Shown here: positions 1 to 14,169 of the stretch, one piece after another
How positions within the stretch are numbered: the first letter of the stretch is position 1
Layout: each line of letters starts with the position of its first letter
Assembly: GCF_025685625.1 (NCBI RefSeq)
Contig: NZ_JAGSYI010000001.1
Coordinates: 744,001 to 808,000, forward strand
Reading direction: 5' to 3'
Origin: Acidicapsa acidisoli
GTDB lineage: Bacteria > Acidobacteriota > Terriglobia > Terriglobales > Acidobacteriaceae
DNA length: 64,000 nucleotides
The notes under the pieces: generated by a model
What the model was told of the DNA's origin: nothing
What the model saw: the letters and a program-made list of their open reading frames with translations, nothing else
Databases searched by the model: none
Translations under genes and position numbers: made by a program

Positions 1-1128
1 CAAGTGAGCCGCCAGGAAAAGCATCTCCGGGATGTTGTGGAAACGATTCCGGCGATGGCCTTTTCTGCCCGGCCCGATGGGTCTACGGAATTCGTCAATC
101 GGCCATGGCTTGACTTCACAGGGTTCTCCAGCAAAACCGACCTGGACGCCAGCTGGCAGCTCACACTTCACTCCGACGACGTGCAGGAGCACATGACCAA
201 GTGGCGAGCATCACTGGCCACTGGCGCGCCATTCGAAAATGAGGTGCGCCATCGCGCCGCCAATGGCGAATATCGCTGGTTTCTGGTGCGTGCCGTTCCG
301 CTGCGCGACAAGCACGGAAAGGTTCTCAAGTGGTATGGAACCCTGACAGACATTGAAGATCGTAAGCGCGCAGAGCAGGAACGCGAGAGATTTAGACAGC
401 TGCAGGCACATCTCGCCCACGAGAACCGGGTCAGCATGATGGGAGAACTGGTCGCCTCTCTCTCTCACGAGCTAAGGCAGCCCATCACCGCGTCCATCGT
501 AGACGCCAATGCCTGCCTACTGTGGCTCACCCGCGACCAGCCCAATGTCGAAGAGGCCCTCAACGCCACAAAGAGAACCATGAAAGACGGAACCCGTGCG
601 GCCGAAATCATTGACCGTGTGCGCTCTTTTTACAGGAAAGGCGCTCCCCCCGAACGGGAATCGGTCGATGTCAACGAAGTGGTCCGTGAAATGCTCGCCC
701 TGCTGCGCGCAGAAGCCGACGGCTACTCCATCCCCTTGCGCATCAACCTGGCCCGCGAACTTCCCCGAGTTACCGCCGACCGCGTGCAACTGCAGCAGGT
801 ATTGATGAACCTGATGCTCAATGGAATTGAAGCCATGAAGGAGACAGGCGGCGAACTGACGATTAGATCGGAACTTGGCCAGGACGGCCAGCTCCTCATC
901 TCCATCAGCGACACCGGTGTAGGGCTACCGGACGAAAAGATGGAGGAGATTTTCAGCCCGTTCTTCACCACCAAACCGCAGGGTTCCGGCATGGGACTGG
1001 CCATCTGCCGCTCCATCGTCGAGGCACACAGCGGTCGCTTGTGGGCCCGTCCCAATCATGGACGCGGGGCGACGTTTTACTTCACTCTGCCCGCCGAGGT
1101 GACTACGCCATCCCCTTCGTTTGCCTGA
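1..1128 (+). CDS. PAS-domain sensor histidine kinase, 5' end outside window
   Basis: The frame is open to the window edge, so the true start probably lies upstream; a GTG at position 4 is only the first in-frame start seen here. A PAS-type sensory fold with its C-terminal PAC part occupies about residues 5-120 (FVNRPWLDFTG, then WYGTLTDIEDRKRAEQ). A dimerisation/phosphoacceptor helix follows with the H-box SLSHELRQPI, whose His would be autophosphorylated. The HATPase domain shows the N box (LMNLMLNGIEAM), G1 box (DTGVGL), F box (FSPFFTTK) and G2 box (GSGMGLAI). No transmembrane segment is visible in this part, so it may be cytoplasmic or anchored by the missing N-terminus. No response regulator lies downstream; the next gene is convergent. 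Partner and signal are unknown. Confidence 0.9.
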   Translation, partial: QVSRQEKHLRDVVETIPAMAFSARPDGSTEFVNRPWLDFTGFSSKTDLDASWQLTLHSDDVQEHMTKWRASLATGAPFENEVRHRAANGEYRWFLVRAVPLRDKHGKVLKWYGTLTDIEDRKRAEQERERFRQLQAHLAHENRVSMMGELVASLSHELRQPITASIVDANACLLWLTRDQPNVEEALNATKRTMKDGTRAAEIIDRVRSFYRKGAPPERESVDVNEVVREMLALLRAEADGYSIPLRINLARELPRVTADRVQLQQVLMNLMLNGIEAMKETGGELTIRSELGQDGQLLISISDTGVGLPDEKMEEIFSPFFTTKPQGSGMGLAICRSIVEAHSGRLWARPNHGRGATFYFTLPAEVTTPSPSFA

Positions 1129-1214
1129 AGCGCTAGAGTTGCCGCGGTTACTACAGCAACTTCGCTTCCTGCACTTGGCTGCTCTTAATTGTTAGGACTA
1201 GAAGCAAAAATATT

Positions 1215-3143
1215 CTAGAACACGGTCACGTTGTAAGTTTTCTCTTTCGGCGTCCCCGCAATCACAGCGCAGACATTTACGGTGGCCGTGGTTTCCGATA
1301 CCGTGGCGCGCACAGTGAAATTACCTCCGATAAACGAACCATCGCTTTCGGTTGCAATCGCCGTGTGCCCAGTGGCTGAGGTCGCGAGCGCCACGGTTCC
1401 AGTCGCGCAAGCGCCCGCAGCCAAAGCTGATCCGCCAATCGATCCTGTCGTCCCGGTCTGCACGAGCGGGATATTGCTTGCCACGTAAGGTGCCGAAGGA
1501 ATCACATGGGGGAACGCCGCCGTGTTCTCCGGGAGGATGTTCTGCTCCGAGAAGCCGTCTCCGATCCATTGGACGGTCAATGTCCCCGGGTTGCCGCCTT
1601 GATTTGCAATCGTTACGCCAAGCTGGGCTGAAGTCTGGGAGCCCGCCACCGCGTTACCCAGGATCTCCGGGGTAATGACCTGTGCATTTCCATAGTGAGA
1701 CAGAACCGTAAGCTCTCCAGAGGCTGCATATGGGCCGGAACCAACGTAGATATCCCAAAGGTCGGTGCGGTTTCTGCCGATGTAGCTTAGGCGATACTCG
1801 CCAGAGAGAAGGAGGTTTGGCTGCGTCGTATTCGGCGGTTCTGCAGCTACGAAAGTACCGCCGCTGCTTGGAACGTAGATGGTCTTCGATGACCCTGGCG
1901 TCTGAATATGCACGATCGGAACATTCCTTCCGTCGCTCGAATACAGAAGCGATTGCGAATTAGTTCCGACGGACTTCGGGAACTTCCCGTTGATGTTGCC
2001 GGAAAATATCCCGGAGAGGCTGAGTTGCGCATTTCCCGCGCTGCTCACATAGAACGGGGCGATCGTAGGCTGAGACGTTCCGCCATATCCGAAGTAGGTC
2101 GCGCCTGAAGGAAGGCTAAGATGCGCGTTGCCCTCAAGCTGTACCAGGCTGGTTGCGGTGTAAGTCGAAGCATCCACAAAGAACGTCGGAGAAACCATCG
2201 TCACGTCGCTGTTATTGGATGAATTTATAACGACGAAGGGATAATCCATCTTGCTCTGCACATCCTCGAAGTGTGGCGCCTCAAAGACAACCTGCATCGG
2301 ATTCGTGCCAATAACGACCTGACACCCATCAATTCTGGGCGCAAAGAAAAAGAATTCGGCACTGCTGCCTCCAGAAGCCCCGAGAATCTGAATGCAATTC
2401 TGACCCGTAGCCGTGCCGTCCGATTGTGCTCCGTTGGCAATTGTGCAGTTGATGCAGGAGATGCTCTCGCCGGAATTGCTCAGGCTCTCCGCATAGTAGA
2501 GGTTGATATCGTTCGTTCCGATGGCCACCGTGTCGAACGAGTCATCGAAGGAATTGTTCCCGAAGGTCAGGCCGATGTGAAACTGTGCCGTGGTGCTCGT
2601 ATTCGGGATATAGCCTCCGACTGCGATATCCTTCGCCTTGAAGCCCTGAATATTTACCTGAAGCCCAATGGCTGTGTTCGAGTTTCCTGTCGTACCGGGT
2701 CCAAGCAGGCTAAGGTCTCGTATTCCCCACCCGGCCGTGTTCGGACCCGATGCTCCGTTGATCGTGATAGCAGTTCCACTGGCCGCGGTGAACTTGAGGA
2801 CAGAACCATCCTTGCTCTGACCTTCGATATTGCAAGTGCCGTTAATGACAATCGGAGTGGAAAATAGATAGGGAGAAGCGGCAGCCGGGATAATTACTGT
2901 ACCGCCATTCTTATAGGTCGCGCACGCTGCGTTGATCCAATTGCCAATATCCTGCGTTCCCGTCTTTGGGCACCACGAGGGCGCGAGAGACGTGGAAGCC
3001 GTGCCGCAGGCGACCGCGCTCAGTGTCCCGTTGACGCTCGTGGCTGGCCCAGATACAACGGTCTGGGAAATCGCCACAGTACAAAACAGGTAAATGATCG
3101 AGAGAGAGAGTACGAACCGCTTCAACTTGGCATTTCCTTCCAC
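1215..3143 (-). CDS. Secreted parallel beta-helix (pectate-lyase-3-like) protein
   Basis: A 642-residue protein with an N-terminal signal peptide (KRFVLSLSIIYLFCTVAIS, cleavage near residue 27). Residues about 65-240 (GTQDIGNWINAACATYKNGG onward) resemble the start of pectate-lyase-3/phage-tailspike-type right-handed beta helices, followed by Asn/Ser/Gly/Thr-rich repeats typical of secreted beta-solenoids. The last 70 residues look like a beta-sandwich tail. The furthest upstream start is GTG at 3143; a TTG at 3125 is an alternative because GGAAGGA sits about 10 bases before it and it begins directly at the basic part of the signal peptide. It stands alone, convergent with the histidine kinase. 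A substrate cannot be assigned: the fold is shared by polysaccharide lyases, hydrolases and non-catalytic adhesins. Confidence 0.75.
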   Translation of the reverse strand: MEGNAKLKRFVLSLSIIYLFCTVAISQTVVSGPATSVNGTLSAVACGTASTSLAPSWCPKTGTQDIGNWINAACATYKNGGTVIIPAAASPYLFSTPIVINGTCNIEGQSKDGSVLKFTAASGTAITINGASGPNTAGWGIRDLSLLGPGTTGNSNTAIGLQVNIQGFKAKDIAVGGYIPNTSTTAQFHIGLTFGNNSFDDSFDTVAIGTNDINLYYAESLSNSGESISCINCTIANGAQSDGTATGQNCIQILGASGGSSAEFFFFAPRIDGCQVVIGTNPMQVVFEAPHFEDVQSKMDYPFVVINSSNNSDVTMVSPTFFVDASTYTATSLVQLEGNAHLSLPSGATYFGYGGTSQPTIAPFYVSSAGNAQLSLSGIFSGNINGKFPKSVGTNSQSLLYSSDGRNVPIVHIQTPGSSKTIYVPSSGGTFVAAEPPNTTQPNLLLSGEYRLSYIGRNRTDLWDIYVGSGPYAASGELTVLSHYGNAQVITPEILGNAVAGSQTSAQLGVTIANQGGNPGTLTVQWIGDGFSEQNILPENTAAFPHVIPSAPYVASNIPLVQTGTTGSIGGSALAAGACATGTVALATSATGHTAIATESDGSFIGGNFTVRATVSETTATVNVCAVIAGTPKEKTYNVTVF

Positions 3144-3247
3144 TCGAGTCGCACGGCACAGATAGCCAGCATCAACGCGACAGAAGGAGAACCTTTAGGT
3201 TTCCCGACCTCAGCCACGTTCTAAAGCACTCAAAGAGGCAGCTAGTG

Positions 3248-3279
3248 GGTTGTTGGATTCATGCACGAATTCAACAACC
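3248..3279. repeat. 13-bp inverted repeat upstream of the beta-helix gene
   Basis: The arms 3248-3260 and 3267-3279 are complementary with one mismatch around a 6-base loop (ATGCAC). It lies between the divergent start of the beta-helix gene and the left att copy. There is no T-tract on either side, so it is not a canonical terminator; an operator or a transcript-end hairpin for the left tRNA-like copy is possible. The rest of 3144-3393 holds nothing else I recognise. Confidence 0.4.
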
Positions 3280-3393
3280 AATAACGCTGCCACGGAGGTC
3301 CGATTGTATAAGGATACGGAACTAAAATCGAAGGCCAGCGACCTCCATGCTCAACGAATCACAGTCGGGTGCGAATTTCTACCTTATTTATTC

Positions 3394-3472
3394 TAATGGT
3401 CGGGACGGGCAGATTTGAACTGCCGACCCCTCGCACCCCAAGCGAGTGCTCTACCAGGCTGAGCCACGTCCC
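3394..3472. repeat. Left attachment-site repeat (att), 79 bp
   Basis: This 79-bp stretch is identical, base for base, to 13713-13791 in the same orientation. Identity stops abruptly on both sides (C versus A before, T versus G after). It covers a whole tRNA-Pro sequence except its first base, and an integrase gene starts 62 bp to its right. Direct repeats of a tRNA gene with an integrase just inside are the classical signature of a tRNA-targeted integrative element. This is the left boundary. Confidence 0.9.
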
Positions 3473-3473
3473 T
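3397..3473 (-). tRNA. tRNA-Pro(GGG)-like copy in left att; first base altered
   Basis: Read on the minus strand it folds as a cloverleaf with anticodon loop TTGGGGT (anticodon GGG, proline), a T-loop TTCAAAT and an encoded CCA end. It differs from the copy at 13716-13792 only at position 1, which is A instead of C, so the C1:G72 pair at the top of the acceptor stem becomes A:G. C1:G72 is part of the identity set of bacterial tRNA-Pro, so this copy is probably the displaced att remnant and may be poorly functional. Its 5' flank is element DNA, so it may also lack the native promoter. Confidence 0.7.
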
Positions 3474-3508
3474 TTAGAATCAGCATCTTATTCGGGTTGC
3501 CTCCAAAT

Positions 3509-3520
3509 TTGAGTACTCGC
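3509..3520. promoter_or_regulatory. 12-bp repeat TTGAGTACTCGC, possible integrase arm site
   Basis: The same 12 bases occur in the same orientation at 13653-13664. This copy begins 36 bp inside the left att, the other ends 48 bp outside the start of the right att, so both are just within the element ends. They contain the palindrome GAGTACTC. The position fits arm-type binding sites of tyrosine integrases; the role is inferred only. Confidence 0.35.
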
Positions 3521-3534
3521 TTGGAGAAAACCGT

Positions 3535-4383
3535 ATGGGATTTTCAGAGTTCACCCGCGAACGCCAATTCCTCTCAAACGTCTCACCGTCAACGCTGGAA
3601 TGGTACAAGCACGCCTTCAAATGGCTGCTCACGGATTCACCTTCGCAAGACGACCTCAAATCCGCCGTGGTCCGTATGCGGGAAAAGGGATTGAAGGCAA
3701 CAGGCTGCAATTCAGCCATCCGCGCAATCAACACATATCTGCATTGGGCGAGTGCAGGCTCAGAGGTCAAATGCGGTCCCACATGCAAGCATCCGAAAAT
3801 CGCCCAACTTAAAGAACCTCAACTCGTGTTGCCCACCTTCACAGAGCAACAAATCAAGCTGCTTGTCTCGTGGAAGCCCAAGGACAAGTACCAAGAGCGG
3901 CTCCATTTGGTGACGTTGTTCCTGCTTGACACCGGATGCCGCATCTCTGAGGCCCTCACATTGCGCGTCTCCGATTTGAACTTTGAAAATCTGCTTGTCA
4001 CGCTGGACGGCAAGGGGCGCAAGCAGCGGGTTGTCCCCTTCAGCTTTGAGTTGCGGAAAGCGATGGTGCGCTATTGCAAGGAAACGAATCGGACACCGGA
4101 CAGCCTGCTCTTTGCCAATTGCACCCAAACGATATTGGGGCGTAGGAACGTTTTGCGGGATGTGAAGCTGCTTTGCAAGCGGCTAGGATTCACGCCTCCA
4201 GGTCGCACGCTCCACGCCTTCAGGCACACATTCGCGGTCAACTACTTGCGGCGTGGCGGCTCCGTGTTCCATCTGCAAAAGGTGCTCGGTCACAGCACAC
4301 TTGAGATGACTCGCCGCTATGCCAACTTGATGACTGAGGACCTCCAGGCCGTGCATGAGCGTGTGAGCCTGCTCTCAAAATAG
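3535..4383 (+). CDS. Tyrosine recombinase/integrase of the tRNA-Pro element
   Basis: A 282-residue phage-type integrase, about the usual length for the shorter XerC/XerD-like members. The N-terminal 85 residues form the SAM-like core-binding domain (RQFLSNVSPSTLEWYKHAFK). The catalytic domain shows the first Arg in TGCRISEALTLRV, the Lys hairpin in LDGKGRKQRVVPF, HxxR in LHAFRHTFAV, and the final His and nucleophile Tyr in LGHSTLEMTRRYANL. The complete R-K-H-R-H-Y set suggests activity. A GGAGA stands 8 bases before the ATG. It starts 62 bp inside the left att repeat and is transcribed into the element. It would catalyse integration at, and excision from, the tRNA-Pro gene; no excisionase is recognisable. 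Confidence 0.93.
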   Translation: MGFSEFTRERQFLSNVSPSTLEWYKHAFKWLLTDSPSQDDLKSAVVRMREKGLKATGCNSAIRAINTYLHWASAGSEVKCGPTCKHPKIAQLKEPQLVLPTFTEQQIKLLVSWKPKDKYQERLHLVTLFLLDTGCRISEALTLRVSDLNFENLLVTLDGKGRKQRVVPFSFELRKAMVRYCKETNRTPDSLLFANCTQTILGRRNVLRDVKLLCKRLGFTPPGRTLHAFRHTFAVNYLRRGGSVFHLQKVLGHSTLEMTRRYANLMTEDLQAVHERVSLLSK

Positions 4384-4967
4384 GTGGGGGTTGGGGCAGC
4401 CACGGTGTTCATCGGCTAGCCTAGAGGCCGCCATGTGCGATTGATGGGCATTCAGGGCTAAGAAACGCTCCGGGATGCCTATTGCGCGGTGAGCCAATCG
4501 CACTGGCGTCCGAAATGGGATTTACTCCTGTCCACGTACAAAAAGGACTACTGGTGTGCTCTCCTGAGTACCCTCTTTAACTTTTGACCCGCCCCCGGTC
4601 CCTTTTCATCCCGCCGGACACATCGCATGGGAGTGCGGGGCAGAGGGGGTGGGTCAAAATCTTGAACACATTCCCTTATGAGAGCGCCGCAATCCACAAT
4701 GTTACACACGGTAACAATTCTCGGAAAATAGAGATTCGGGGCGGGATTACGCGGGTACGACTACTCACAGACTTAAGAGTAGTAGTGTTGATATAACACA
4801 CTCTAGAGAAAGCCTTTGTGCGCTTTATTTTCAATAGGTTGAGGCCAGCGCGAACGGCGTTTTCATCGGTACCCACACACCCGATTTTGAGCGTGTGCGT
4901 ACCGATGATTCGGCAGTTTCCGGCCCGTAGTTACCGCAAGATGCAAGTAGGACATGAAGCCTTGCTA
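4384..4967. other. Noncoding 584-bp segment between convergent integrase and replication genes
   Basis: No convincing gene: short open frames here lack family features and ribosome sites. It contains hairpin-forming repeats at 4760-4783 (ACTACTC/GAGTAGT), 4785-4799 (GTGTT/AACAC) and a strong 16-bp inverted repeat at 4863-4908. The segment 4690-4860 looks AT-richer than its surroundings. Because the element encodes a primase-helicase, this is the best candidate for its replication origin or for a shared transcription-end region. Confidence 0.4.
4863..4908. repeat. 16-bp inverted repeat, origin/terminator candidate
   Basis: The arms 4863-4878 and 4893-4908 (TCATCGGTAC... / ...GTACCGATGA) are complementary with one mismatch around a 14-base loop. 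No T-tract follows in either direction, arguing against a simple rho-independent terminator. It lies about 60 bp beyond the last gene of the leftward replication operon. Confidence 0.5.
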
Positions 4968-5207
4968 TTACAAAACCGAGACGCTCTTTTGCCGCCTCTT
5001 CTTCTTATAGTTAGGCCCGATGAATGCTGGTGCAGCATCGCCGCCCTCAACCGTGTGGATTCGGTCATTCGCGTCGTCAATCATTTTCTCTATGCTGCCG
5101 TAGTCGTATTCTGTCCAAGCCCTATCGAAGCGGATTTTCTCGTGCATGGCCGCCTCCTTTTTCCTGCTTTCCTGCCGCTTTTGTTGCTGCTCTCTCCGTT
5201 TCGTCAT
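4968..5207 (-). CDS. Small basic hypothetical protein of the element
   Basis: A 79-residue protein, last gene of the leftward operon. It begins MTKRREQQQKRQESRKKEAA, a highly charged helix, followed by an acidic middle (EYDYGSIEKMIDDANDRIH) and a basic tail (NYKKKRRQKS). The open frame extends further upstream, but that part overlaps the preceding gene and has no protein-like composition, so ATG 5207 (37 bp after the previous stop) is preferred; no clear ribosome site is seen. No family recognised. The basic ends suggest nucleic-acid contact, which is inference only. Confidence 0.55.
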   Translation of the reverse strand: MTKRREQQQKRQESRKKEAAMHEKIRFDRAWTEYDYGSIEKMIDDANDRIHTVEGGDAAPAFIGPNYKKKRRQKSVSVL

Positions 5208-5244
5208 GGGCACAGTCCAATGTGATTCAGGTGTGATCTTGTCA

Positions 5245-5568
5245 TTAGGCGTTAGCTCGCCCGTAAGCCTCCGCAACGTCAGTGAAGATGGAGAGAGCCT
5301 CTTGAAGCCATTTGGCCGCTTCCTCATTCGACATTTGAGACGTTGTGGCTTCGATTGTCCCCTCATCTCCCCGAGCGGCCCGTTTTGTGTTATCAGCGAG
5401 AAGCGCCTCAAACCGCTCCCAGGTTGCATCATCCGGGAAGCTGTCGCGCTCCAAGTGGCAAACACCGGATACAACCCCAAACAACCGCTCCTGCACCGAG
5501 TCTGTGCTCCCAATTGCATAGTTCAATACGCTGAAGAATTTCTCGTGCCCATAGTCCCCCCCATGCAA
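5245..5568 (-). CDS. Hypothetical protein (107 aa), TTG start
   Basis: It begins with TTG at 5568, supported by a strong purine-rich ribosome site (GGAAGGGGGG) five bases upstream; an ATG one base further on is in another frame. The sequence is acidic and helical (DDATWERFEALLADNTKRAA, EEAAKWLQEALSIFTDVAEA) with no membrane segment or metal motif. It lies 36 bp behind the primase-helicase gene and in the same direction, so it is probably cotranscribed and may be an accessory replication or regulatory factor. No family recognised. Confidence 0.65.
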   Translation of the reverse strand: MHGGDYGHEKFFSVLNYAIGSTDSVQERLFGVVSGVCHLERDSFPDDATWERFEALLADNTKRAARGDEGTIEATTSQMSNEEAAKWLQEALSIFTDVAEAYGRANA

Positions 5569-5604
5569 AATCCCCCCCTTCCTTTTCGAGAAGAATACTA
5601 CTGC

Positions 5605-7365
5605 TCAATTGACCGTGGGAGGCTCCGGGAACGCCCGGTAGTATTTCCCGTTGGACTTCGTGACCTTGCCCTCCTTTGCCGCACGATTTTTCCAGTCGAA
5701 AAACAGATTGCGATTGCCAAAGCCCGGCTGATACTTGATTTCGTCACCCGGTTGGACCGCCTGAAATATGCGCTGCTCAATGCGGTCAATTGCTTTCAGT
5801 TCTGGCACGGCTTGTGGCTCCGTTGTCAAAACCAGCCCCTCCGGCTGCCACTCGAAAAACAGGGTTTCGGTGCGTCCATTCCGCGTCAACACCGTGCACC
5901 GCCGGACAGAGTTTGGGTCATCATCGTTGTTCAATGCCATGAGCACCACGGTTTCAACCTTGCGAGCCAAAGCCGCACTTCCGAAAAGCGAGTCACGGCC
6001 AAAGTATTTGTTGTCCTTGCCGCGTTGCTTTGGGCTGCCCACCGTGCCAAGCACTGCGACATCACGCCGGGTAGCAATGCGCTGCAAGCCGTCAATCACC
6101 GGCCCTACGACCTCCATCTTGTTCGGGTCCGTAATCCAGAGGTCCAGGCCCTCAATGAACCAACACTCAACGCCCGGTTCCCGTTCAATGGCCGCCTCCA
6201 AAGCCTCAGCGGGCGGATGTGATTGCTGCTCTGAGGTCAACCGGATGACGCGCTGAATTGCCTCTGTGGACAGCCCCAAGGACTTCACTGTGCGCTGCAT
6301 GGCCTTCTTGGAACGGTCATGCAACAACACCCGATAGTCGCGGGGCTTCGCACCGTGCCCGAATATGTCCGCACCTTTGCGAATCTTCTCAAGTAGCGGC
6401 ATTGCCCATGACGTTTTGCCCGCACCAGATGACCCGCCAATGAGGGAGACTTCGCCCTTCGGAAACCAACCCTCGTGCATTGGCTCCGGGAGCGCGTCAA
6501 CGAGATACTCCGTGGGTCCGTCATCTTCGATTGGGTCATGGTCACTGCCATCGAAAACGGGCGTGTCCTTCGCTACAGCGGTCACAGCCCGTGTGATTGT
6601 CCCTTCCCTGTAGTCGTCCCTCTCCCACTTTTCCCGATACAGGCCGGAGTCACGAAACTCCGCGTCAATCTTGAACGCATTGCAGCGGTGTTTCTTTGCA
6701 AGCAAAATACACAGCGCAAAGTCCGCCGTGCTGTGGTCATCCTTGTAATCACTCATGTCCCCGGCCATCAGCTTGCGAAGCCGCTCTTCCTCACTGAGTT
6801 GGAGAGAGATTGTAAGGCCGCTTTTCGGGCTGGTGGCCTTGGACACGCGGTCATAAAGCGCGTTCACCTGCTCCTTCCGGTCCATGAGCAGGTTGGGCGT
6901 CTTGTTCAAATGGCGTGCGGTGAATGTGAAGTAATAGCCGTCTGACTTGACCTCAACGGACTTCAGACCAAGGTAAGGTTTCTTGATTCCCGGTCCAGGC
7001 AGCCCGCCGATGCCAAGCACGTGGCAGCCCGTCCCCGATGGGCTGTATTCCCCATAACTGTCCAGGCCAATGATTATCTCACGTGACTCGGGAGTGAATT
7101 TGCCCGTGTGCGCATCACAGCATCCATCAATGTCAACGCCCCAGACGCACACGCCGTCCACCCTCCCGAGCGCAAGGCCCACCCCAGAGAATTGTGGAGC
7201 GAGCGCCGCGCACTCAGCGTGTGTGTGCCACGTGCTTGGATTGTTCGCCATAGCCTTGCGTCCGCTTGGCTGATATGGAACCTTGGTCTGTTTGTCGTGG
7301 ACAGTTTCCATACGCCACAGGACCCAACGCCGTTGTGCTTTCAGGTTTTCAATTGAGAGGGCCAT
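5605..7365 (-). CDS. Primase-polymerase/helicase-like replication protein
   Basis: A 586-residue protein. The N-terminal 180 residues match the pattern of NrS-1-like phage primase-polymerases (RRWVLWR..., NNPSTW, VDIDGC with catalytic Asp pair near residues 78/80, SPSGTGCH near 109-115 and a following Lys-rich strand). The second half is a RecA/RepA-like ATPase with Walker A GGSSGAGKT at about 310-318 and Walker B-like WFIEGLDLWI. Known enzymes with this layout prime and copy DNA and unwind it for small replicons. The ATG at 7365 overlaps the previous stop codon as TAATG, so the two are translationally coupled; a TTG two codons earlier is less likely. It suggests that the excised element can replicate. 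Substrate specificity cannot be read. Confidence 0.8.
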   Translation of the reverse strand: MALSIENLKAQRRWVLWRMETVHDKQTKVPYQPSGRKAMANNPSTWHTHAECAALAPQFSGVGLALGRVDGVCVWGVDIDGCCDAHTGKFTPESREIIIGLDSYGEYSPSGTGCHVLGIGGLPGPGIKKPYLGLKSVEVKSDGYYFTFTARHLNKTPNLLMDRKEQVNALYDRVSKATSPKSGLTISLQLSEEERLRKLMAGDMSDYKDDHSTADFALCILLAKKHRCNAFKIDAEFRDSGLYREKWERDDYREGTITRAVTAVAKDTPVFDGSDHDPIEDDGPTEYLVDALPEPMHEGWFPKGEVSLIGGSSGAGKTSWAMPLLEKIRKGADIFGHGAKPRDYRVLLHDRSKKAMQRTVKSLGLSTEAIQRVIRLTSEQQSHPPAEALEAAIEREPGVECWFIEGLDLWITDPNKMEVVGPVIDGLQRIATRRDVAVLGTVGSPKQRGKDNKYFGRDSLFGSAALARKVETVVLMALNNDDDPNSVRRCTVLTRNGRTETLFFEWQPEGLVLTTEPQAVPELKAIDRIEQRIFQAVQPGDEIKYQPGFGNRNLFFDWKNRAAKEGKVTKSNGKYYRAFPEPPTVN

Positions 7366-7703
7366 TACCAACGCACCCCCTCAGCGAATGGAGAAACAAC
7401 GCTGTCATCCAGCAACACGGTATCGAAATAGGATTTTCCTGCATGATTCCGAATGAGGAGTAAATGGCCGTGCCCCTCTTCGCAGCGCACCTCCAGGCGC
7501 ACCCAACGGCGGTCCCGCTCGCGGGGATCACGTTCCCACACCACGTCAACAATATGTGTTTTGTGGCCGCACTTGCACTTGGTCCAAGGGCACCTCAGAT
7601 AGCCGTCTTTGATGAGGTCGTCAATGATTGGCATTGGAAAAGGAAATTCTGGAGATGTTAGCCGTGAGGCAAGTTGATCAATTTCCGTTGTGTTGGACAG
7701 CAT
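7365..7703 (-). CDS. Cys-rich hypothetical protein, coupled to primase
   Basis: A 112-residue protein, first gene of the leftward operon. Around residues 38-48 it has a compact Cys/His cluster (CPWTKCKCGHKTH), and a further Cys and His at RCEEGHGH, enough for one zinc site. Its stop overlaps the start of the primase-helicase by one base. It may be a small DNA- or protein-binding partner of the replication protein. No family recognised. Confidence 0.65.
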   Translation of the reverse strand: MLSNTTEIDQLASRLTSPEFPFPMPIIDDLIKDGYLRCPWTKCKCGHKTHIVDVVWERDPRERDRRWVRLEVRCEEGHGHLLLIRNHAGKSYFDTVLLDDSVVSPFAEGVRW

Positions 7704-7859
7704 TTATAACTCGCTTTCTGCCGCTAGCTGCGGGCTTCGGATTGGTGACAGCAATGCCCCGCAATCGCGCTGCAAGGCGCGTAGGTGTGTTGCTGCGAAT
7801 CACTGGGCGTCATCCTGCCACACAACGTAGTGTCCCGCAAGGGCGAGTACAATTGTTCT
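7704..7859. promoter_or_regulatory. Divergent promoter region of the element
   Basis: A 156-bp gap between the leftward replication operon and the rightward cargo operon; both must start here or just inside the flanking genes. I see no confident -35/-10 pair and no long inverted repeat. Confidence 0.4.
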
Positions 7860-8702
7860 ATGCAAAAAATGTCACCCATCCCAACCGTCCCAATCGCGCT
7901 CCACATCCGGGCTGCTCGGATTCCGCTTCGATGGACCGTGCGCGACCACGAGTTACAGGAATGGCGTGCTGCTGATGGGAAAGTGATTAGTGAAGGCGGA
8001 ATCGAACGGGTGTTCTGGCCTCAAGTCGAGACAACGAAGTGGGGGGACGTTGAGCTAACCGAGATAGAAGACCCTTTGGAGTTCCGCATCAAGCTGTTTA
8101 GGTTTTTCAACATCAACAAGACGGAGGCCGCCGCGTTGGACTTTCTCCAGGACATTGGCGCATGGCGCATCGTGACTGAAGAGCATCGCGAACGGTGGGC
8201 CGAAGGGACGTATGCGAACGTAACCTACGGGCACCGTCAAGGTGTCGGACTTCGTATGCTGCCGACAACCCTCCCCGAGATTCTCCAGGCGATTGAGGGC
8301 TGGTACAAACTTCTGGGCAATCACAACCCGAAGAAGCTGGAGAGCCAATTCAAGCCGCCCCCTCCGCCGGATGCCCGCGTATCTGACCGCAATCTTTTTG
8401 CGATGGAAGCACAATTCGTCAACACATTGCCGGTTTCGCTGGAATGGCGCGGAAAGGACCCCTATGCGGTCATTGAAACGATTAGCGCATGGGAACTGAT
8501 GATTGCTGCCGCTTGGGTTGACGTTGTGAGCCGGGCGGAAGAGCAGGTATGCGCAAGATGCGGGACGCGGTTCACATGGCCACGAAAAAAAAAGCATTGC
8601 CGGTGGGAATGTGGGCACTTGGCCGCCGTTGGCAAGTACAAGAGAAAGAAAGCACTCGAAAAACAACAACAGTCGGAGGCAGCGAACGGCACGCCTGCTT
8701 AG
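7860..8702 (+). CDS. Unknown protein with C-terminal Cys-knuckle, upstream of type III R-M
   Basis: A 280-residue protein counted from ATG 7860; the frame is open 75 bases further upstream but that part is atypical, and ATG 7869 is also possible. Residues 1-220 have no motif I recognise. Near the C-terminus CARCGTRFTW and HCRWECGH give a CxxC...CxxxC set, then a Lys/Arg-rich helix (KYKRKKALEKQQQ). The arrangement recalls treble-clef/CGNR-type zinc fingers, usually DNA-binding, but the CGNR residues themselves are absent. It precedes the methyltransferase gene by about 60 bp on the same strand. It could be a controller of the R-M genes or an independent accessory factor; the function is not known. 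Confidence 0.7.
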   Translation: MQKMSPIPTVPIALHIRAARIPLRWTVRDHELQEWRAADGKVISEGGIERVFWPQVETTKWGDVELTEIEDPLEFRIKLFRFFNINKTEAAALDFLQDIGAWRIVTEEHRERWAEGTYANVTYGHRQGVGLRMLPTTLPEILQAIEGWYKLLGNHNPKKLESQFKPPPPPDARVSDRNLFAMEAQFVNTLPVSLEWRGKDPYAVIETISAWELMIAAAWVDVVSRAEEQVCARCGTRFTWPRKKKHCRWECGHLAAVGKYKRKKALEKQQQSEAANGTPA

Positions 8703-8765
8703 GAGCCGCGCCGGAGCTTCTGAGATGTAAACTTTCAAAAGAAAACAAGAGGATTGTCAGACCGT

Positions 8766-10556
8766 ATGCCGGAGCTTCAGTTCAAAGGGAAAGAGTTCGT
8801 CTACAACCACCATTTGACAGTGCCGTACCGCCCTCTGGTGCCGGATGCGGGCAAGTCTGTGGGGGAGCCGTCTCTGCTTGGCAATCTCATCATCCACGGA
8901 GACAATTTGCACGCGCTCAAGGCGCTGTTGCCGATGTATGCGGGCAAGGTGGATTGCATCTTCATTGACCCGCCGTACAACACGGGGAATGAGGGCTGGA
9001 GCTACAACGACAACGTGAACAGCCCAATGATGAAGGAGTGGCTTTCCAGCAATCCTATCAACGCTGAAGACATGCTCCGCCACGACAAGTGGTGCGCAAT
9101 GATGTGGCCACGACTAACGCTCTTGAAGGAGCTTCTTTCGGAATCGGGCAGTATTTGGATTACGTTGGATGACAACGAGGTCCACCACGCGCGCAATCTA
9201 CTGGACGAAATATTCGGAGACGATCATTGCATTGGTCAGTTGGCATGGCAAAAGCGCACCTCTCGTGAAAACCGTGCTGTGCTATCTCCTAGCATTGACC
9301 ATCTAATTGCCTACTCGAAGTGTTCCACGAAGCTATGGCGACTGGTTCGGAATCTCCTGGAGCCTGGTGACGAAGGCTATTCAAATCCGGACCAAGACTC
9401 ACGAGGAGATTGGAAGTCCATACCCTTTTCGGCACAAGGTTTTCGAAAAAATCAGGTCTACAAAATCACATCTCCAACAGGAAAAGTCTTCGATCCGCCG
9501 AAAGGGAGGTGTTGGGGCGCAACAGAACCAGAATTTGAATCGCTGAAACACCAAGGTCTTGTTTATTGGCCAAAGGACGGTGATGGGCGGCCCCGAATCA
9601 AGCAGTTTCCAAAAAACGCAAAGGGACTTGTGCCTGAGACTCTTTGGCTCGCACGTGAAGTCGGAGATACTGAAGACTCGAAGAAACAATTGCTCGAAAT
9701 ATTCTCAGACAGGGACGAAATTGACTTCCACGCCCCAAAGCCTCCTCAGCTAATTGAACGGATACTAAAAATCTCAACCGAAAAAGATTCGGTGGTGCTC
9801 GATTCGTTTGCGGGAACAGGTACAACCGCCCATGCGGTCTTGCTTGCGAACAAAGATGATTCAGGAACACGAAGGTTCGTGCTGGTGGAGTTGGAGGATT
9901 TTGCAAATACGTTGACCGCTGAGCGCGTGCGCCGGGTCATCGGGGGATATAAGTTCGTGGGAACGCAGAAGGAGGAGCTTCTTCGAGATTCCCTCACTTG
10001 GACAAAGTTGAACAATGCCGAAAAACTGCTGAAAAAGGTCGTCCGTCTTGAGGAATTGAGTGCCGCCAATTACAACAATATCGGCAAGGTTGTGAAGGAC
10101 GGCGAATTGGTGGTGACGGGAGAAAATACGGTAACCGAACGCACGGAGGGCTTGGGCGGCGAATTTACCTACTGCACGCTTGGCGCTGAATTGAATGTGG
10201 ACAAGATTCTGACTGGCGAATCATTGCCCGATTACCTTTCGGTTGGCGCGTGGCTCTTTCATACTGCCACTGGCGAAGCCTTTGATGCCTCCAAAGCAAA
10301 GGCTAAGGACTGGTATCTAGGCGAGAGCGCGGCGTTCCACGTCTGGCTTGTGTACCGCCAGGAGTTGGATTTTCTCAAGTCCGCTGATGCTGCGTTGACT
10401 CTGGCACTCGCAGAGAAGATTGCAAAGGCGAAGACCGCCGGGAAGAAGCATCTTGTGTTTGCGCCCGCAAAGTATGTGCCCAATACCAAGCTGTTGCCAA
10501 TGGGCGTGGAGTATGCGCCGTTGCCATTTGCTCTCTACCGGATTGAGAAGGGCTGA
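8766..10556 (+). CDS. mod: Type III DNA adenine methyltransferase (Mod)
   Basis: About 597 residues, the usual size of type III Mod proteins. Motif order is beta-class: the catalytic DPPYNTG motif IV at about residues 68-74 precedes the AdoMet-binding DSFAGTGTT motif I at about 346-354. The intervening stretch (about 150-330) is the target-recognition region and looks lower in GC than the ends, as expected for an exchangeable module. ATG 8766 is 12 bases after GAGGA; a TTG at 8754 is in frame but abuts that site. It ends five bases before the restriction gene. The enzyme would methylate N6-adenine in one strand of an asymmetric site and also guide the Res subunit; the site cannot be deduced from sequence. 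Confidence 0.92.
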   Translation: MPELQFKGKEFVYNHHLTVPYRPLVPDAGKSVGEPSLLGNLIIHGDNLHALKALLPMYAGKVDCIFIDPPYNTGNEGWSYNDNVNSPMMKEWLSSNPINAEDMLRHDKWCAMMWPRLTLLKELLSESGSIWITLDDNEVHHARNLLDEIFGDDHCIGQLAWQKRTSRENRAVLSPSIDHLIAYSKCSTKLWRLVRNLLEPGDEGYSNPDQDSRGDWKSIPFSAQGFRKNQVYKITSPTGKVFDPPKGRCWGATEPEFESLKHQGLVYWPKDGDGRPRIKQFPKNAKGLVPETLWLAREVGDTEDSKKQLLEIFSDRDEIDFHAPKPPQLIERILKISTEKDSVVLDSFAGTGTTAHAVLLANKDDSGTRRFVLVELEDFANTLTAERVRRVIGGYKFVGTQKEELLRDSLTWTKLNNAEKLLKKVVRLEELSAANYNNIGKVVKDGELVVTGENTVTERTEGLGGEFTYCTLGAELNVDKILTGESLPDYLSVGAWLFHTATGEAFDASKAKAKDWYLGESAAFHVWLVYRQELDFLKSADAALTLALAEKIAKAKTAGKKHLVFAPAKYVPNTKLLPMGVEYAPLPFALYRIEKG

Positions 10557-10561
10557 CCGAC

Positions 10562-13150
10562 ATGGAGCTGAAGCCCTATCAACAGGACAGTCTTGACACG
10601 GTTGACCTCTACCTTGAGCAGCTTGTTCTATTCAGAGCCAAGGCGGAAAAGACCCGCGCCCTCGCGCTCGAAAACCCCGATGTGGAAGTGCCGATTCCCG
10701 ACTTTCCAAGGCAGGCATGGAACGCGCTGCGCAACAAAGGCGTCCTTCCGGTTTCTCGTAGGAGCCACCAGTACGTTTCCCGCAAGGACGGTACAGGAGA
10801 GGATGTGCCGAGTGCCTGCCTGAAAATTCCCACGGGCGGCGGCAAGACTCTGCTTGGGGCGTATTCGGTTTCTCGAATCATGGGTAGTTATCTGGAGAGC
10901 AACTGCGGCTTTGTTCTCTGGATTGTGCCCAATGAAGCGATCTATTCACAAACAAAACGGCAACTCACAAGCCGCGAACACCCAATACGCCAAATCCTTG
11001 ACCGTGCGGCGGCGGGGCGCGTGAAGATTCTTGAGAAGGATGACCCGCTCAACGCGCTGGACGTGCAGAGTAACCTTTGCGTGATGCTGTTGATGCTCCA
11101 GTCCGCCAATCGGGAGACGAAAGAGACATTGCGCCTCTTCCGGGACCGGGGCAACGTACACGGTTTCTTTCCGGCGGGAGACGACATACAGCGCCATTGG
11201 GATTTGATCGGGCGGATTCCGAATCTGGATTGCTACGGGCGTGCCGATACGATGGGCGCGACAGCCAAGGACAGCTTGGGCAATGTGTTGAGGCTACTGC
11301 GCCCCGTAGTGGTGATGGACGAAGGCCACAAGGGTTACTCCGCCATCGCCATGAACACAATCAACGGATTCAACCCGTCCTTTGTGTTGGAGCTTTCTGC
11401 CACTCCGAAAGAAAACGCGAATTGGCTGGTGGATGTGCGGGGCGCTGCGCTGCAAGCGGCGGAGATGATAAAGCTGCCCATCAATGTGAAGGTGAAAGCC
11501 GGAGACGACTGGAAAGACTGTCTGCGGGAGAGTTTTGACAAAATCAACAGCCTGCAAGTGAGCGCGGACCGGTTGAGAGCAAACACGTCCCGCTATATTC
11601 GCCCAATCTTGCTGGTGCAAGTGGAGCGGACGGGCAAGGAACAACGCGACGGGAAAATGATTCATGCTGAGGATGCGCGGGATTTTCTCCTGTCAATTGG
11701 ACTGGACCGCACACAGGTTGCAGTGAAGACAGCGGACACGAATGAACTGGACAATCGAGGCAACGGTGACCTGCTCAGTTCCACTTGCCCCGTGCGCGTC
11801 ATCATCACGAAGCAGGCATTGCAGGAAGGGTGGGATTGCCCCTTTGCCTATGTGCTTTGCACGCTGGCAACGAATCGCAACCTCAACGCCGTTACACAGC
11901 TTGTGGGACGGATTCTGAGGCAGCCGGAGGCGACTTACGTTTCAGAGGAGTTAGCCGTCCTGAATGAGTGCTACATCTTTTGCCACCATGCGAGCACAAA
12001 GGAAGTGGTGGACAGCATCAAGACAGGTCTGGAAAAGGACGGCATGGCGGACTTTGCCGGGAAGGTGAAAGAGGGCGACAGCAGTTCCAGTGCCAAGCAG
12101 ACAACCCGCAAAGTGCAAAGGCGGGACCAATTCCGTACACTGCGGATTTTTCTTCCAATGGTGAATTGGGTGGACGGAAAGGCATCACGCCCGCTGGACT
12201 ATGAGCAGGATGTTTTGTACCGGCTGAATTGGGAGGCGCTGGACCTCAAGCCACTGGTGGAACAACTCTCGAAGGCTCCCACAGCGGAGGCAAGCTATGT
12301 TGTGCGTGTCGGTATCGGGACCGGCAAGGATTGGCTTGAGGAGTCGGGACGGCAGACAGTTGTTGAATCCACGAGTTTCGACACCGTGTATGCAACCCGG
12401 CTGATGGTAGACATTCTGCCGAATCCTTGGGTGGCACGCGCACTCATCGGGGAGTTGCTTGCTGCCCTACGTGGGCGCGGGTTGACCGATGCTGACCTTG
12501 GCGGCGCGTCCGGCTACATTCTGGAGGAGCTTCGCAAGTGGCTGGTGAAAGAGCGTGACCGGCTGGCAGAGACGCAATTCTTCGGTGACGTATCGGCGGA
12601 GCGGATTCAATTCAGGTTGCGGGCGGACCGTGCGGTTTGGGAATTGCCGATGACCTTGGACACGGAGCGGCCTGAGAAGGCGCGTAAATTGGTGCGGCCA
12701 TCATCGGGCGGCCCCGTAGAGAAGAGTATTTTTGCGCCCGTTTATGAAGAGGATTTCAACACGGATGAGGCGGAGTTTGCCTGCTACTTGGATGAGCAAG
12801 CGGCCTTGGACTGGTGGCACCGCAACGTTGCCAAGGCTGGGAACTATGCACTTCAGGGGTGGCGCAAGAATCGGGTTTACCCCGACTTTATTTTTGCGCA
12901 CCAGAAGTCCGGCAAGAAACAGCGCATTGTGGTTTGGGAGACAAAGGGCGACCAACTTGAGGGGAACCTAGACACCGTGTACAAGCGCAAATTGCTGGAC
13001 GCGATGTCAAAATCCTTCAAGGCTGAAGACGTGGTTCACGCTGGTGAATTGGAACTGGTGAGCAAGGACGGTGTAAGCGTCAGTTGTGAGATGGTCCTGA
13101 TGAGCGAATGGAAAGGGCAAATAATCGGCACGCTGGGGTCCGAAGGATAG
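10562..13150 (+). CDS. res: Type III restriction enzyme, helicase-nuclease subunit (Res)
   Basis: 862 residues. An SF2 helicase core carries Walker A PTGGGKT at 90-96, motif II DEGH at about 253-256 and motif III SAT near 281, then the second RecA-like lobe with TKQALQEGWDCPFA and TQLVGRILRQPEA (motif VI). The C-terminal nuclease motif is YPDFIFA...VVWETKGD, a PD-(D/E)xK set at about D775, E793, K795. All key residues are present, so activity is likely. It forms a two-gene unit with Mod and would cleave DNA after translocation from unmethylated, head-to-head sites, the known behaviour of type III enzymes such as EcoP15I. Confidence 0.93.
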   Translation: MELKPYQQDSLDTVDLYLEQLVLFRAKAEKTRALALENPDVEVPIPDFPRQAWNALRNKGVLPVSRRSHQYVSRKDGTGEDVPSACLKIPTGGGKTLLGAYSVSRIMGSYLESNCGFVLWIVPNEAIYSQTKRQLTSREHPIRQILDRAAAGRVKILEKDDPLNALDVQSNLCVMLLMLQSANRETKETLRLFRDRGNVHGFFPAGDDIQRHWDLIGRIPNLDCYGRADTMGATAKDSLGNVLRLLRPVVVMDEGHKGYSAIAMNTINGFNPSFVLELSATPKENANWLVDVRGAALQAAEMIKLPINVKVKAGDDWKDCLRESFDKINSLQVSADRLRANTSRYIRPILLVQVERTGKEQRDGKMIHAEDARDFLLSIGLDRTQVAVKTADTNELDNRGNGDLLSSTCPVRVIITKQALQEGWDCPFAYVLCTLATNRNLNAVTQLVGRILRQPEATYVSEELAVLNECYIFCHHASTKEVVDSIKTGLEKDGMADFAGKVKEGDSSSSAKQTTRKVQRRDQFRTLRIFLPMVNWVDGKASRPLDYEQDVLYRLNWEALDLKPLVEQLSKAPTAEASYVVRVGIGTGKDWLEESGRQTVVESTSFDTVYATRLMVDILPNPWVARALIGELLAALRGRGLTDADLGGASGYILEELRKWLVKERDRLAETQFFGDVSAERIQFRLRADRAVWELPMTLDTERPEKARKLVRPSSGGPVEKSIFAPVYEEDFNTDEAEFACYLDEQAALDWWHRNVAKAGNYALQGWRKNRVYPDFIFAHQKSGKKQRIVVWETKGDQLEGNLDTVYKRKLLDAMSKSFKAEDVVHAGELELVSKDGVSVSCEMVLMSEWKGQIIGTLGSEG

Positions 13151-13298
13151 AGCTTCGGTGGAGTCTTGAGGAAGCGACTCCGGGGCGTAATCGTCTTGGA
13201 GCACCCGGAGCGGCTACACAGGTGAACCTATCGGAGCATTCGGATTCCGCGTGTCGTGTAAGAGGGTTTGTTTAGGAGATTTTCAAGTCGGACCGGGG

Positions 13299-13586
13299 CT
13301 AGTCGTTCCGCCACTTGGCGCAATAGCCGCATTCCATTGCAGAGTCCTCAATAGCTGCTTTGATTGCATCTGTCATTTCACGGCGGTCTGAAAAGACACC
13401 GTTCAACTCGCCCGAAGAGAATAGGCGATTGCCGCGAATGTATGCCGGAGTGTTGTCGTCTCCGGGTGCGCCATAGACTTCACTGTGGAACTCGCAACGT
13501 TTCAACACACCCGCGTCCACTGCAATTTCTTGGGCGATTATCCATTGATCTTGCTCTAATTGCATCTGCCTTTTCGCGAAGCCCAT
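13299..13586 (-). CDS. Hypothetical protein (95 aa) at right end of element
   Basis: A small soluble protein convergent with the restriction gene. CAGGAG lies six bases before its ATG. It has Cys at CEFH and a C-terminal CGYC pair (MECGYCAKWRND), and an internal GDDNTPAYIRGNRLFSSGEL. No membrane segment. It is the last gene before the right att repeat. Function unknown; a small regulator or inhibitor is one guess among many. Confidence 0.6.
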   Translation of the reverse strand: MGFAKRQMQLEQDQWIIAQEIAVDAGVLKRCEFHSEVYGAPGDDNTPAYIRGNRLFSSGELNGVFSDRREMTDAIKAAIEDSAMECGYCAKWRND

Positions 13587-13652
13587 ATTCTGCTCCTGCC
13601 GTTTTCTGCTCTAAACCACTTCCGCTATTTTGATCGACAATCCTTGCACTAA

Positions 13653-13664
13653 TTGAGTACTCGC
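13653..13664. promoter_or_regulatory. Second copy of TTGAGTACTCGC, possible integrase arm site
   Basis: Matches 3509-3520 exactly and lies just inside the right att repeat, in the same orientation. See the left copy; the role is inferred. Confidence 0.35.
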
Positions 13665-13712
13665 CTTACAATTTCCCTCTGGAGGGTAATCCTTCTAAGT
13701 CGTTGATTCTAA

Positions 13713-13791
13713 TAATGGTCGGGACGGGCAGATTTGAACTGCCGACCCCTCGCACCCCAAGCGAGTGCTCTACCAGGCTGAGCCACGTCCC
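13713..13791. repeat. Right attachment-site repeat (att), 79 bp
   Basis: Perfect direct repeat of 3394-3472. It overlaps the intact tRNA-Pro gene, whose native 5' flank continues to the right, so this is the junction where the element is joined to the functional target gene. Confidence 0.9.
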
Positions 13792-13792
13792 G
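13716..13792 (-). tRNA. tRNA-Pro (anticodon GGG), intact copy
   Basis: A 77-base cloverleaf on the minus strand: acceptor stem CGGGACG/CGTCCCG, D-loop AGCCTGGTAGA, anticodon stem CTCGC/GCGAG with loop TTGGGGT (anticodon GGG, reads CCC), T-arm GGCAG TTCAAAT CTGCC, discriminator A and encoded CCA. The C1:G72 pair required for proline identity is present, unlike in the left copy. This is the functional gene and the integration target of the element. Confidence 0.95.
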
Positions 13793-13896
13793 ACACGGTT
13801 TAGCCGGCTCAGATCGTGTGGACCGAGCCAGCATGGGGTTCTGATTTAGTTTACACGAGCCGCGCTTGATACGGATTTGGGCCCGGCAGAGGAGGG

Positions 13897-14169
13897 CTAG
13901 TGCTTCGGCGGAACGTACTCTGCCGGCAAGGCTGCGCCGTCGCCAAAGAAGAACTCCTGCATCTGTTCAACTAGAAAGCTCTGCGCCTGCGGAGTCCATG
14001 GCTGCAGCCGGTATTCATTCAGCAGCATCTTCTGGCGCTCGCTCCACTCTGCCCACGCCTGCTTGGAGACGTTCTTGTAAATCTTCTGACCAAATTCGGA
14101 GTCGAAGGGCGGCTCATCGAGACCCTCCATCTCTTTCTTGTTGCGAACGCAAAATACCATGTGTGCCAT
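13897..14169 (-). CDS. yggX: Fe(2+)-trafficking / oxidative damage protection protein YggX
   Basis: 90 residues, the family length. Hallmarks are VFCVRNKKEMEGLDEPPF at the start (conserved Cys), GQKIYKNVSKQAWAEW, QKMLLNEYRL and EQMQEFFFG. YggX proteins protect iron-sulfur clusters and influence labile iron in the cytoplasm. ATG 14169 gives the family N-terminus MAHMVFC; earlier in-frame starts add an atypical extension. It lies 48 bp behind the RNase R gene on the opposite side of the tRNA and is read in the same direction as RNase R. Confidence 0.92.
   Translation of the reverse strand: MAHMVFCVRNKKEMEGLDEPPFDSEFGQKIYKNVSKQAWAEWSERQKMLLNEYRLQPWTPQAQSFLVEQMQEFFFGDGAALPAEYVPPKH

Follow-up and report, generated by a model that had tools for sequence, protein, structure and literature searches.

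Structure of the integrated element

The window analyzed here is a stretch of 64,000 nucleotides of the genome of Acidicapsa acidisoli, and it contains an element of 10.3 kb inserted in a tRNA-Pro(GGG) gene. The element is delimited by two direct repeats of 79 nt each, which are 100% identical and 10,319 bp apart, and ARAGORN identified on the minus strand two copies of tRNA-Pro(GGG), each overlapping one of the repeats (Table 1). The C1:G72 pair is intact in the right copy only, and the left copy has an A for C at tRNA position 1, the base just outside the repeat. The 12-mer TTGAGTACTCGC is common to both inner ends, and it is longer than any word shared after 60 shuffles of one end (longest, 9 nt). 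A preliminary description, made from the sequence alone, had reported the repeats, the two tRNA copies with their difference at position 1 and the 12-mer, and our analysis agrees with it on these points.

Just inside the left end lies an intact tyrosine integrase gene, followed by genes encoding a primase-polymerase with a helicase domain, small proteins and an intact pair of type III restriction-modification (R-M) proteins, a content that had also been recognized earlier. The Pfam domains of the primase are NrS-1 HBD and AAA_25, and it matched the PDB chains 6k9a (8.9e-16) and 6a9w (1.1e-15), both of NrS-1, and 7ola (7.6e-12), a SaPI5 primase-helicase. The Mod and Res genes are adjacent frames that both match the PADLOC type III models, which assigns them to type III R-M. 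For the triggering of the satellite, the 305-aa and the 112-aa protein can at most be named as candidates; the AlphaFold model of the former (mean predicted local distance difference test score of 51) was too weak and was left unused for fold search. Between the integrase and the primase there are two non-coding features, a candidate packaging (cos) site discussed below and a block with two hairpins (4757-4786 and 4863-4908; z of -3.0 and -4.2) that was matched in one related contig (L041) only and that may be the replication origin going with this primase type.

Table 1. Features of the element in the window. Protein lengths are in amino acids (aa).
Feature	Position	Strand	Evidence
Left attachment repeat, 79 bp, with tRNA-Pro(GGG) copy 3397-3473 (-), A at position 1	3394-3472		Repeat search, ARAGORN and sequence
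Candidate integrase core-type site TTAGAATCA; inverted partner TGATTCTAA at 13704-13712	3474-3482		Sequence; inverted 9-mer also in L065
Candidate integrase arm site, 12-mer TTGAGTACTCGC; copy at 13653-13664	3509-3520	+	Sequence
Tyrosine integrase, 282 aa	3535-4383	+	PF00589 E=3.6e-32; family of tRNA-embedded integrases
Inverted partial copy of the candidate cos core	4582-4596	-	Inverted repeat with 4645-4659; exact 13-mer core
Candidate cos (packaging) site, non-coding motif of ~100 bp between integrase and primase	4640-4743	+	Leave-one-out model R2; phage cos comparison
Two-hairpin non-coding block, candidate replication origin	4753-4913		Alignment of 164 bp with L041, 85% identity
Possible small protein, 107 aa, no family; overlaps alternative 183-aa frame 4968-5519	5245-5568	-	Open reading frame (ORF); Pfam/PHROGs/NCBIfam
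Primase-polymerase with RecA/AAA-type helicase domain, 588 aa	5605-7371	-	PF22763, PF13481; phrog_13901 1.1e-43; PDB matches
Small cysteine-containing protein, 112 aa, no family	7365-7703	-	Pfam/PHROGs/NCBIfam
305-aa protein with CxxC...C at the C terminus (by eye); L041 has a relative (34%)	7785-8702	+	FYVE match below cut-off
Type III R-M methyltransferase (Mod), 600 aa	8754-10556	+	PADLOC PDLC03640 1.4e-189; PF01555
Type III R-M endonuclease (Res), 862 aa	10562-13150	+	PADLOC PDLC03653 2.2e-197, residues 1-857 of 862; PF04851
Lambda ea8.5-related protein, 95 aa	13299-13586	-	PF20735 4.3e-10; phrog_6325
Second 12-mer TTGAGTACTCGC	13653-13664	+	Sequence
Right attachment repeat, 79 bp, with intact tRNA-Pro(GGG) 13716-13792 (-)	13713-13791		Repeat search and ARAGORN

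Pfam, PHROGs and seed searches found no capsid, portal, large terminase subunit (TerL), small terminase subunit (TerS) or tape-measure match in the element, and no relaxase or transfer gene appeared among the Pfam, PHROGs and NCBIfam matches of its scanned proteins, as the preliminary description had stated for capsid, terminase and relaxase. The size and the tRNA site would allow an integrative and mobilizable element, but for want of a relaxase or transfer gene we rejected the reading of the element as conjugative or mobilizable and regard it as extremely improbable. The reading of the element as a prophage was also rejected.

Integrase family and insertion site

Relatives of the integrase (alignment A1) occur at 19 named genome loci. 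Among 398 other genomes of the class, 10 have one at E<=1e-50, with up to six candidates scored per genome, and we consider here related integrases at 24 loci (designated by L numbers) besides the window. Direct repeats of 47-79 bp matching a tRNA were found at 13 of these 25 loci, window included, in genes of Pro, Val, Ser or Arg tRNAs. The bounded elements are those of the window, L070, L071, L072, L075, L076, L077, L078, L084, L085, L065, L061 and L041, and their repeats are 97% identical in L084 and L041 and 100% identical in the others. The integrase is thus the mark of a family of tRNA-integrated elements in Acidobacteriota. A chance tRNA duplication unlinked to the integrase, a possibility raised in the preliminary description, is refuted by the same arrangement across the family and keeps a negligible probability.

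Using the primase as a query in IMG/VR, we found one relative, the contig L041, whose main piece shows 81% identity. This relative is flanked by two tRNA-Val copies, its integrase is 70-75% identical to that of the window, and it has genes for a portal, a capsid protein and a p176-family protein (phrog_13625) as well as pieces of an S49-type protease, with no R-M match; the S49-type protease scored by a hidden Markov model was the intact one of L043, not the pieces of L041. At the inner ends, a direct shared word longer than in shuffled sequences was found in 3 of the 13 bounded elements (12 nt in the window, 11 nt in L065 and 16 nt in L076), at similar positions and with different sequences; the 12-mer was rejected as a family feature, since the other 10 do not exceed the shuffles. 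A size ceiling near 10.5 kb is suggestive only, because the loci taken from genome contigs reach at most 10 kb beyond the integrase: among nine integrase loci with 17 kb in view, four have repeats (9.4-10.5 kb) and five do not.

The insertion site was compared with that of relatives of the genus. The primase of the window was matched in 0/14 of them, and a tRNA-Pro followed by yggX was present in 13/13 loci examined, as in the window, at most 4.1 kb being available on the side away from yggX in four of these loci. In L089, L090 and L096, lepA-, OmpH-, BamA- and GPx-like genes (named by eye) lie to the left of a single tRNA-Pro, so three relatives without the element keep older neighbors beside one tRNA. 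Together with the repeats and the integrase, these sites support the integrative nature proposed for the element at the outset.

At 9970-11000 of L064 (G029:C22) there is an ORF resembling a large terminase (by eye), some 6 kb away from a related integrase, and this locus is possibly a complete prophage whose integrase belongs to the family described here. In L043 (1-16288), a single tRNA-Ser appears to be flanked by two satellite-like elements in head-to-head orientation, both with an integrase and a capsid gene of their own.

A candidate cos site

The motif at the candidate cos site is common to ten elements, that of the window included, and several of the other nine have different primases. 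A leave-one-out model (R2), from which the window was excluded, recovered the window motif with E=2.5e-15 and 53 bits and found no other place in the 64 kb. The model from all ten elements (R1), applied to 39 sources, uncovered new copies in L071 (two), L073, L069 and L078, a weak one in L041, and extra copies in L061 (one) and L085 (two). R1 showed no match in L044, L064, L068, L072, L075, L079-L084, L086 and L087, in nine empty-site loci or in two portal regions of the element's own genome. In genome scans, R1 matched at least 3 of 61 genomes, own genome included (one place in 7.1 Mb), and at least 15 of 399 genomes, at 18 or more places. Rfam over 3300-13900 returned only the two tRNAs at E<=0.5, so the motif belongs to no known RNA family there. 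Tail-to-tail inverted pairs of the motif were observed in L061 (16241-16425), L071 (11430-11622), L085 (11936-12116) and L334 (9841-10028), and the window has a partial pair, head to head, formed by 4582-4596 and 4645-4659.

The core of the motif, GGGG(Y)GGGTCAAATC, aligns with phage cos sequence. Two IMG/VR contigs, L238 and L240, have terminase and portal genes downstream of the motif (the L238 terminase by eye), and a search with the L240 site, at E up to 10, matched 73 of 50,697 phage records. The matches listed include the first bases of SfV, SfIV and SfI, positions 27-106 of SfII and positions 40098-40145 of the 40149 of ST64B. In SKA5 and KS9 the match is located between the endonuclease gene and the terminase genes, and in SfII and SfV terS comes directly after the core match. 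The ends of the SfV record meet 17 nt after the core, and in the window a second conserved block, AGAGCGCCGC, begins about 19 nt after it.

We also analyzed the neighborhood of all 67 IMG/VR loci that contain the 17-mer GGGGGYGGGTCAAATCT (68 occurrences), with random positions in the same loci as a control; many of these contigs are short, which lowers all counts. The 17-mer lies within 600 bp after an HNH gene in 45 of the 68 occurrences (7% of random positions), within 1.2 kb before TerL in 36 (11%), and after HNH, before TerL or before TerS in 49 (14%), and HNH or TerL on the opposite strand was found in 0/68. In the class of the window, PF03354 terminases are present at 36 places in 27 of 399 genomes; among them, the prophage-like acidobacterial locus L350 shows HNH, motif, TerS and TerL in this order (R1 E=9e-5), and in L356 the cos core is upstream of TerL. 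From its sequence and neighborhood, the motif is a candidate cos site, that is, a packaging signal that would be common to helper-type phages.

R1 led to eight further loci, L331-L338, outside the integrase family of the window, and the motif is therefore a sequence handle, which could serve to catalogue satellites and to match each with its helper phages. None of the eight matched the SfII or KS9 TerL seeds at E<=1e-5 in the 19-20 kb of each. A primase-like match is present in six (not in L336 and L337), a capsid match in L331, L336 and L338, and a tape-measure-like match in L334 and L336; L337 looks like a remnant. TerS (PF05119) comes just after the motif in L333, with one ORF of unknown nature between them, and HNH (PF01844) is directly beside the motif in L336. 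A ninth locus, L116, combines the motif with a different integrase and with primase-like and tape-measure-like ORFs (by eye). A variable-gap pattern of the motif found at least 120 stretches in IMG/VR, and none of the 80 tested matched R1 at E<=0.01; the two matches of that search were L116 and L117, which had been added as positives. A longer pattern with 24 fixed bases gave no match.

Nature of the element

We interpret the element as a cos-type phage satellite integrated in tRNA-Pro(GGG) with a type III R-M cargo, at a probability of about 0.8. Like satellites in general, it has an integrase with attachment repeats, lacks a full set of virion genes and, as judged by motif sequence and neighborhood, carries a candidate packaging signal in common with helper-type phages. 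The preliminary description had considered a self-replicating or satellite-type element without having noticed the candidate cos site, which now supports this view.

Several results weigh against this interpretation. The motif reaches E<=1e-4 in 9 of the 13 bounded elements, being weak in L041 (0.009) and missing from L072, L075 and L084. In the genome scans with R1, only part of the candidates were scored (up to 63 per genome among 61 genomes, and 9 among 399). The phage matches were accepted at E up to 10, most of them fall inside records, and the neighborhood was viewed for SKA5 and KS9. In its right half the motif is unlike SfV-type cos. When R1 was applied to six stretches from five known phages, ST64B alone gave a match (E=0.009), the SfV site being split between two of the six. 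In addition, 19 of the 68 occurrences of GGGGGYGGGTCAAATCT have none of the tested neighbors, and the core was found at 2 of 30 TerL loci scanned (of the 36 places, with 1.5 kb on each side). Pfam, PHROGs and NCBIfam revealed in the element no gene for capsid redirection, for TerS or for an AlpA-like protein. Finally, the own genome has neither a PF03354 terminase nor a PF05065 capsid, and its two portal-bearing regions have terminase-like ORFs of another type (by eye), so that no resident helper was found. These regions, L111 and L112, were rejected as helpers, showing no convincing similarity to the element and no motif. The missing helper is not a strong counter-argument, because none of the 17 prophages of its strain mobilized EcCIEDL933, a capsid-forming phage-inducible chromosomal island (cf-PICI), according to an excerpt of a review (PMC11389934).

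The same lack of a resident helper terminase would be expected of a phage-independent, integrative and self-replicating island in which the motif is a regulatory or replication site, resembling cos only through its G-rich core. The element does encode an integrase, a primase-helicase and a candidate origin, and the paired inverted motifs of L061, L071, L085 and L334 are unusual for cos. However, the core predicts an HNH or terminase neighborhood in phage contigs picked by the 17-mer alone, L350 has it between HNH and TerS, and two satellite-like loci (L333 and L336) have TerS or HNH beside the motif. Two functional cos sites in one satellite are also on record in EcCICFT073 (excerpt of PMC6092414). 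We therefore consider such an island unlikely. Still less probable is a formerly mobile satellite that has decayed and is kept for its R-M genes: no capsid-redirecting gene was recognized and p176 (phrog_13625), present in L041, L061, L065, L071, L076 and L078, is missing, but the integrase, primase and R-M frames are open, the repeats are identical and the cos motif scores 53 bits in the model built without the window.

Under the interpretation as a cos-type satellite, we infer excision, an origin, packaging by a helper and R-M activity in the following way. A helper phage would trigger the satellite, and recombination between the 79-bp repeats by the integrase would release a circle of 10.3 kb, with a single tRNA gene staying behind. 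The primase-polymerase/helicase may then copy the circle from the two-hairpin origin into concatemers, whose cos site (4640-4743) would be cut by the HNH endonuclease and terminase of the helper, and the DNA would be packed into helper particles. In the next cell the satellite would integrate into tRNA-Pro, where the type III R-M system could protect the host against other phages and so favor retention.

Cargo of the bounded elements

R-M genes are present in 3 of the 13 bounded elements, namely type III in the window, a C5-methyltransferase, Vsr and a REase_II match in L070, and GmrSD with type I genes in L077. Structural genes were likewise found in three: capsid, portal and protease pieces in L041, capsid, protease and a tape-measure-like gene in L061, and a capsid match (26%) with a tape-measure-like gene in L078. 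The term tape-measure-like should be read as a weak label, because neither Pfam nor PHROGs matched the protein of L061; its 729-aa relative in L334 matched phrog_339 at 4.5e-8, and the relative in L336 had no match. Both kinds of cargo occur together in 0/13 elements, a result of small numbers in which the structural elements were checked for R-M by the window Mod/Res seeds and by eye only. The other seven showed neither kind by these searches, with their proteins scanned in part.

The p176 family was observed in L041 (9474-10004) and also in L061, L065, L071, L076, L078 and L043, with phrog_13625 for L041 and L061, and had no match in the three R-M elements; it is a candidate satellite core gene. 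In L332 (13986-17461; G046:C1), two genes lie near a P4-like primase and the cos motif, and the 805-aa protein of one of them matches PADLOC REase_II and PDC-S02; they are perhaps a McrBC-like defense pair.

The R-M cargo of the window stands as first described, but the label of defense island fits less well, because the cargo of the relatives may be type II R-M, GmrSD with type I genes or capsid genes, or may include nothing of the kind, and the element is better seen as a mobile chassis with one R-M cargo. Tentatively, and with less than even confidence, we propose an undescribed family of Acidobacteriota cos satellites built on one exchangeable chassis of about 10 kb, in which defense genes and a capsid/tape-measure set would alternate in a size-limited slot, some members reshaping the helper particle and others defending the cell, and in which unrelated integrases and primases would be united by cos alone. 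The exchange of R-M and capsid genes poses the question of whether packaging size forces a choice between defense and particle remodeling.

Comparison with known satellites

Cos-type phage-inducible chromosomal islands (PICIs) share with the element a tyrosine integrase, a primase-helicase, a helper-type cos and sometimes two cos sites (PMC6092414), and in the element the primase gene is also accompanied by a putative origin. It differs from PICIs in its location in a tRNA gene, in its Acidobacteriaceae host and in that no AlpA/Stl/Rpr-type regulator was recognized in the scanned window proteins, where a divergent regulator is possible. For want of a recognized PICI regulator, we place the element among the phage satellites but outside the PICIs, although a way of working like that of cos-PICIs is proposed.

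The capsid genes of relatives (HK97-type major capsid protein in L061, L331 and L338 by PHROGs; BLAST match in L078 and L336) are comparable to the capsid-protein homologue Ccm of SaPIbov5-type cos Staphylococcus aureus pathogenicity islands (PMC8569155), but the window element has no capsid protein, and some relatives add tape-measure-like or S49 protease genes. The protease pieces, portal and capsid protein of L041 recall cf-PICIs, which also encode terminases, HNH and connectors (PMC10690885). None of the tested seeds matched in the window element, and two TerL seeds were unmatched in all 13 bounded elements. P4-like satellites are characterized by Psu, Delta, Sid and alpha, and in the window element no PHROG for these or for P4 capsid control matched. 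Its primase also differs from that of P4-like satellites, and a phage/plasmid-primase-like protein is present in L065 and L076 (by eye). The presence of defense genes in a satellite with cos is shared with P4-like satellites and their antiviral hotspots (PMC9122126). Tycheposons have in common the tRNA site, the tyrosine recombinase and the cargo, and differ in their hosts, cos being unmentioned in the excerpt of their description (PMC10872708). The model of phage-inducible chromosomal minimalist islands requires int, alpA and a DUF3987/DUF5906 primase beside fis (PMC10803314), and the window element lies in a tRNA gene and has no alpA.

Acidobacteriota are among the most abundant soil bacteria. 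A search of open-licence papers found no report of phage satellites in Acidobacteria, which is weak evidence of absence, and the word satellite is absent from a paper on Acidobacteriota viruses (PMC11924767). The earlier suggestion that the combination of features may be undescribed consequently holds in part: no paper on an Acidobacteria satellite was found, but satellites with defense genes near cos are known (excerpt of PMC9122126).

Left flank of the insertion site

L090 and L096 also have a merR-like gene near the tRNA-Pro (by eye), and the stretch of BamA, GPx and merR of L096 matches C1:736108-741184 in the own genome of the element. There, the merR stretch is followed by a segment of about 6 kb, in which genes for a histidine kinase and a pectin-lyase-like protein were noted (by eye), and then by the element. 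This segment, which extends from merR to the left tRNA copy (G000:C1:740748-747393; window 1-3393), was not found beside the tRNA of the relatives, so the left flank is itself variable, and it is perhaps an older insertion at the same site. DNA thus seems to have entered the tRNA-Pro site on more than one occasion. Fragments of the 3' part of the tRNA were detected near the tRNA-Pro locus in L088, L095 and L098, the last also having a second near-full copy. In L098 (3500-4200; G005:C89), a relative without the element, the intact tRNA-Pro has on its left three tandem units of about 172 bp that each include a tRNA-Pro 3' fragment of 32-34 nt; these units are possibly scars of insertion, or else a repeat of local origin.

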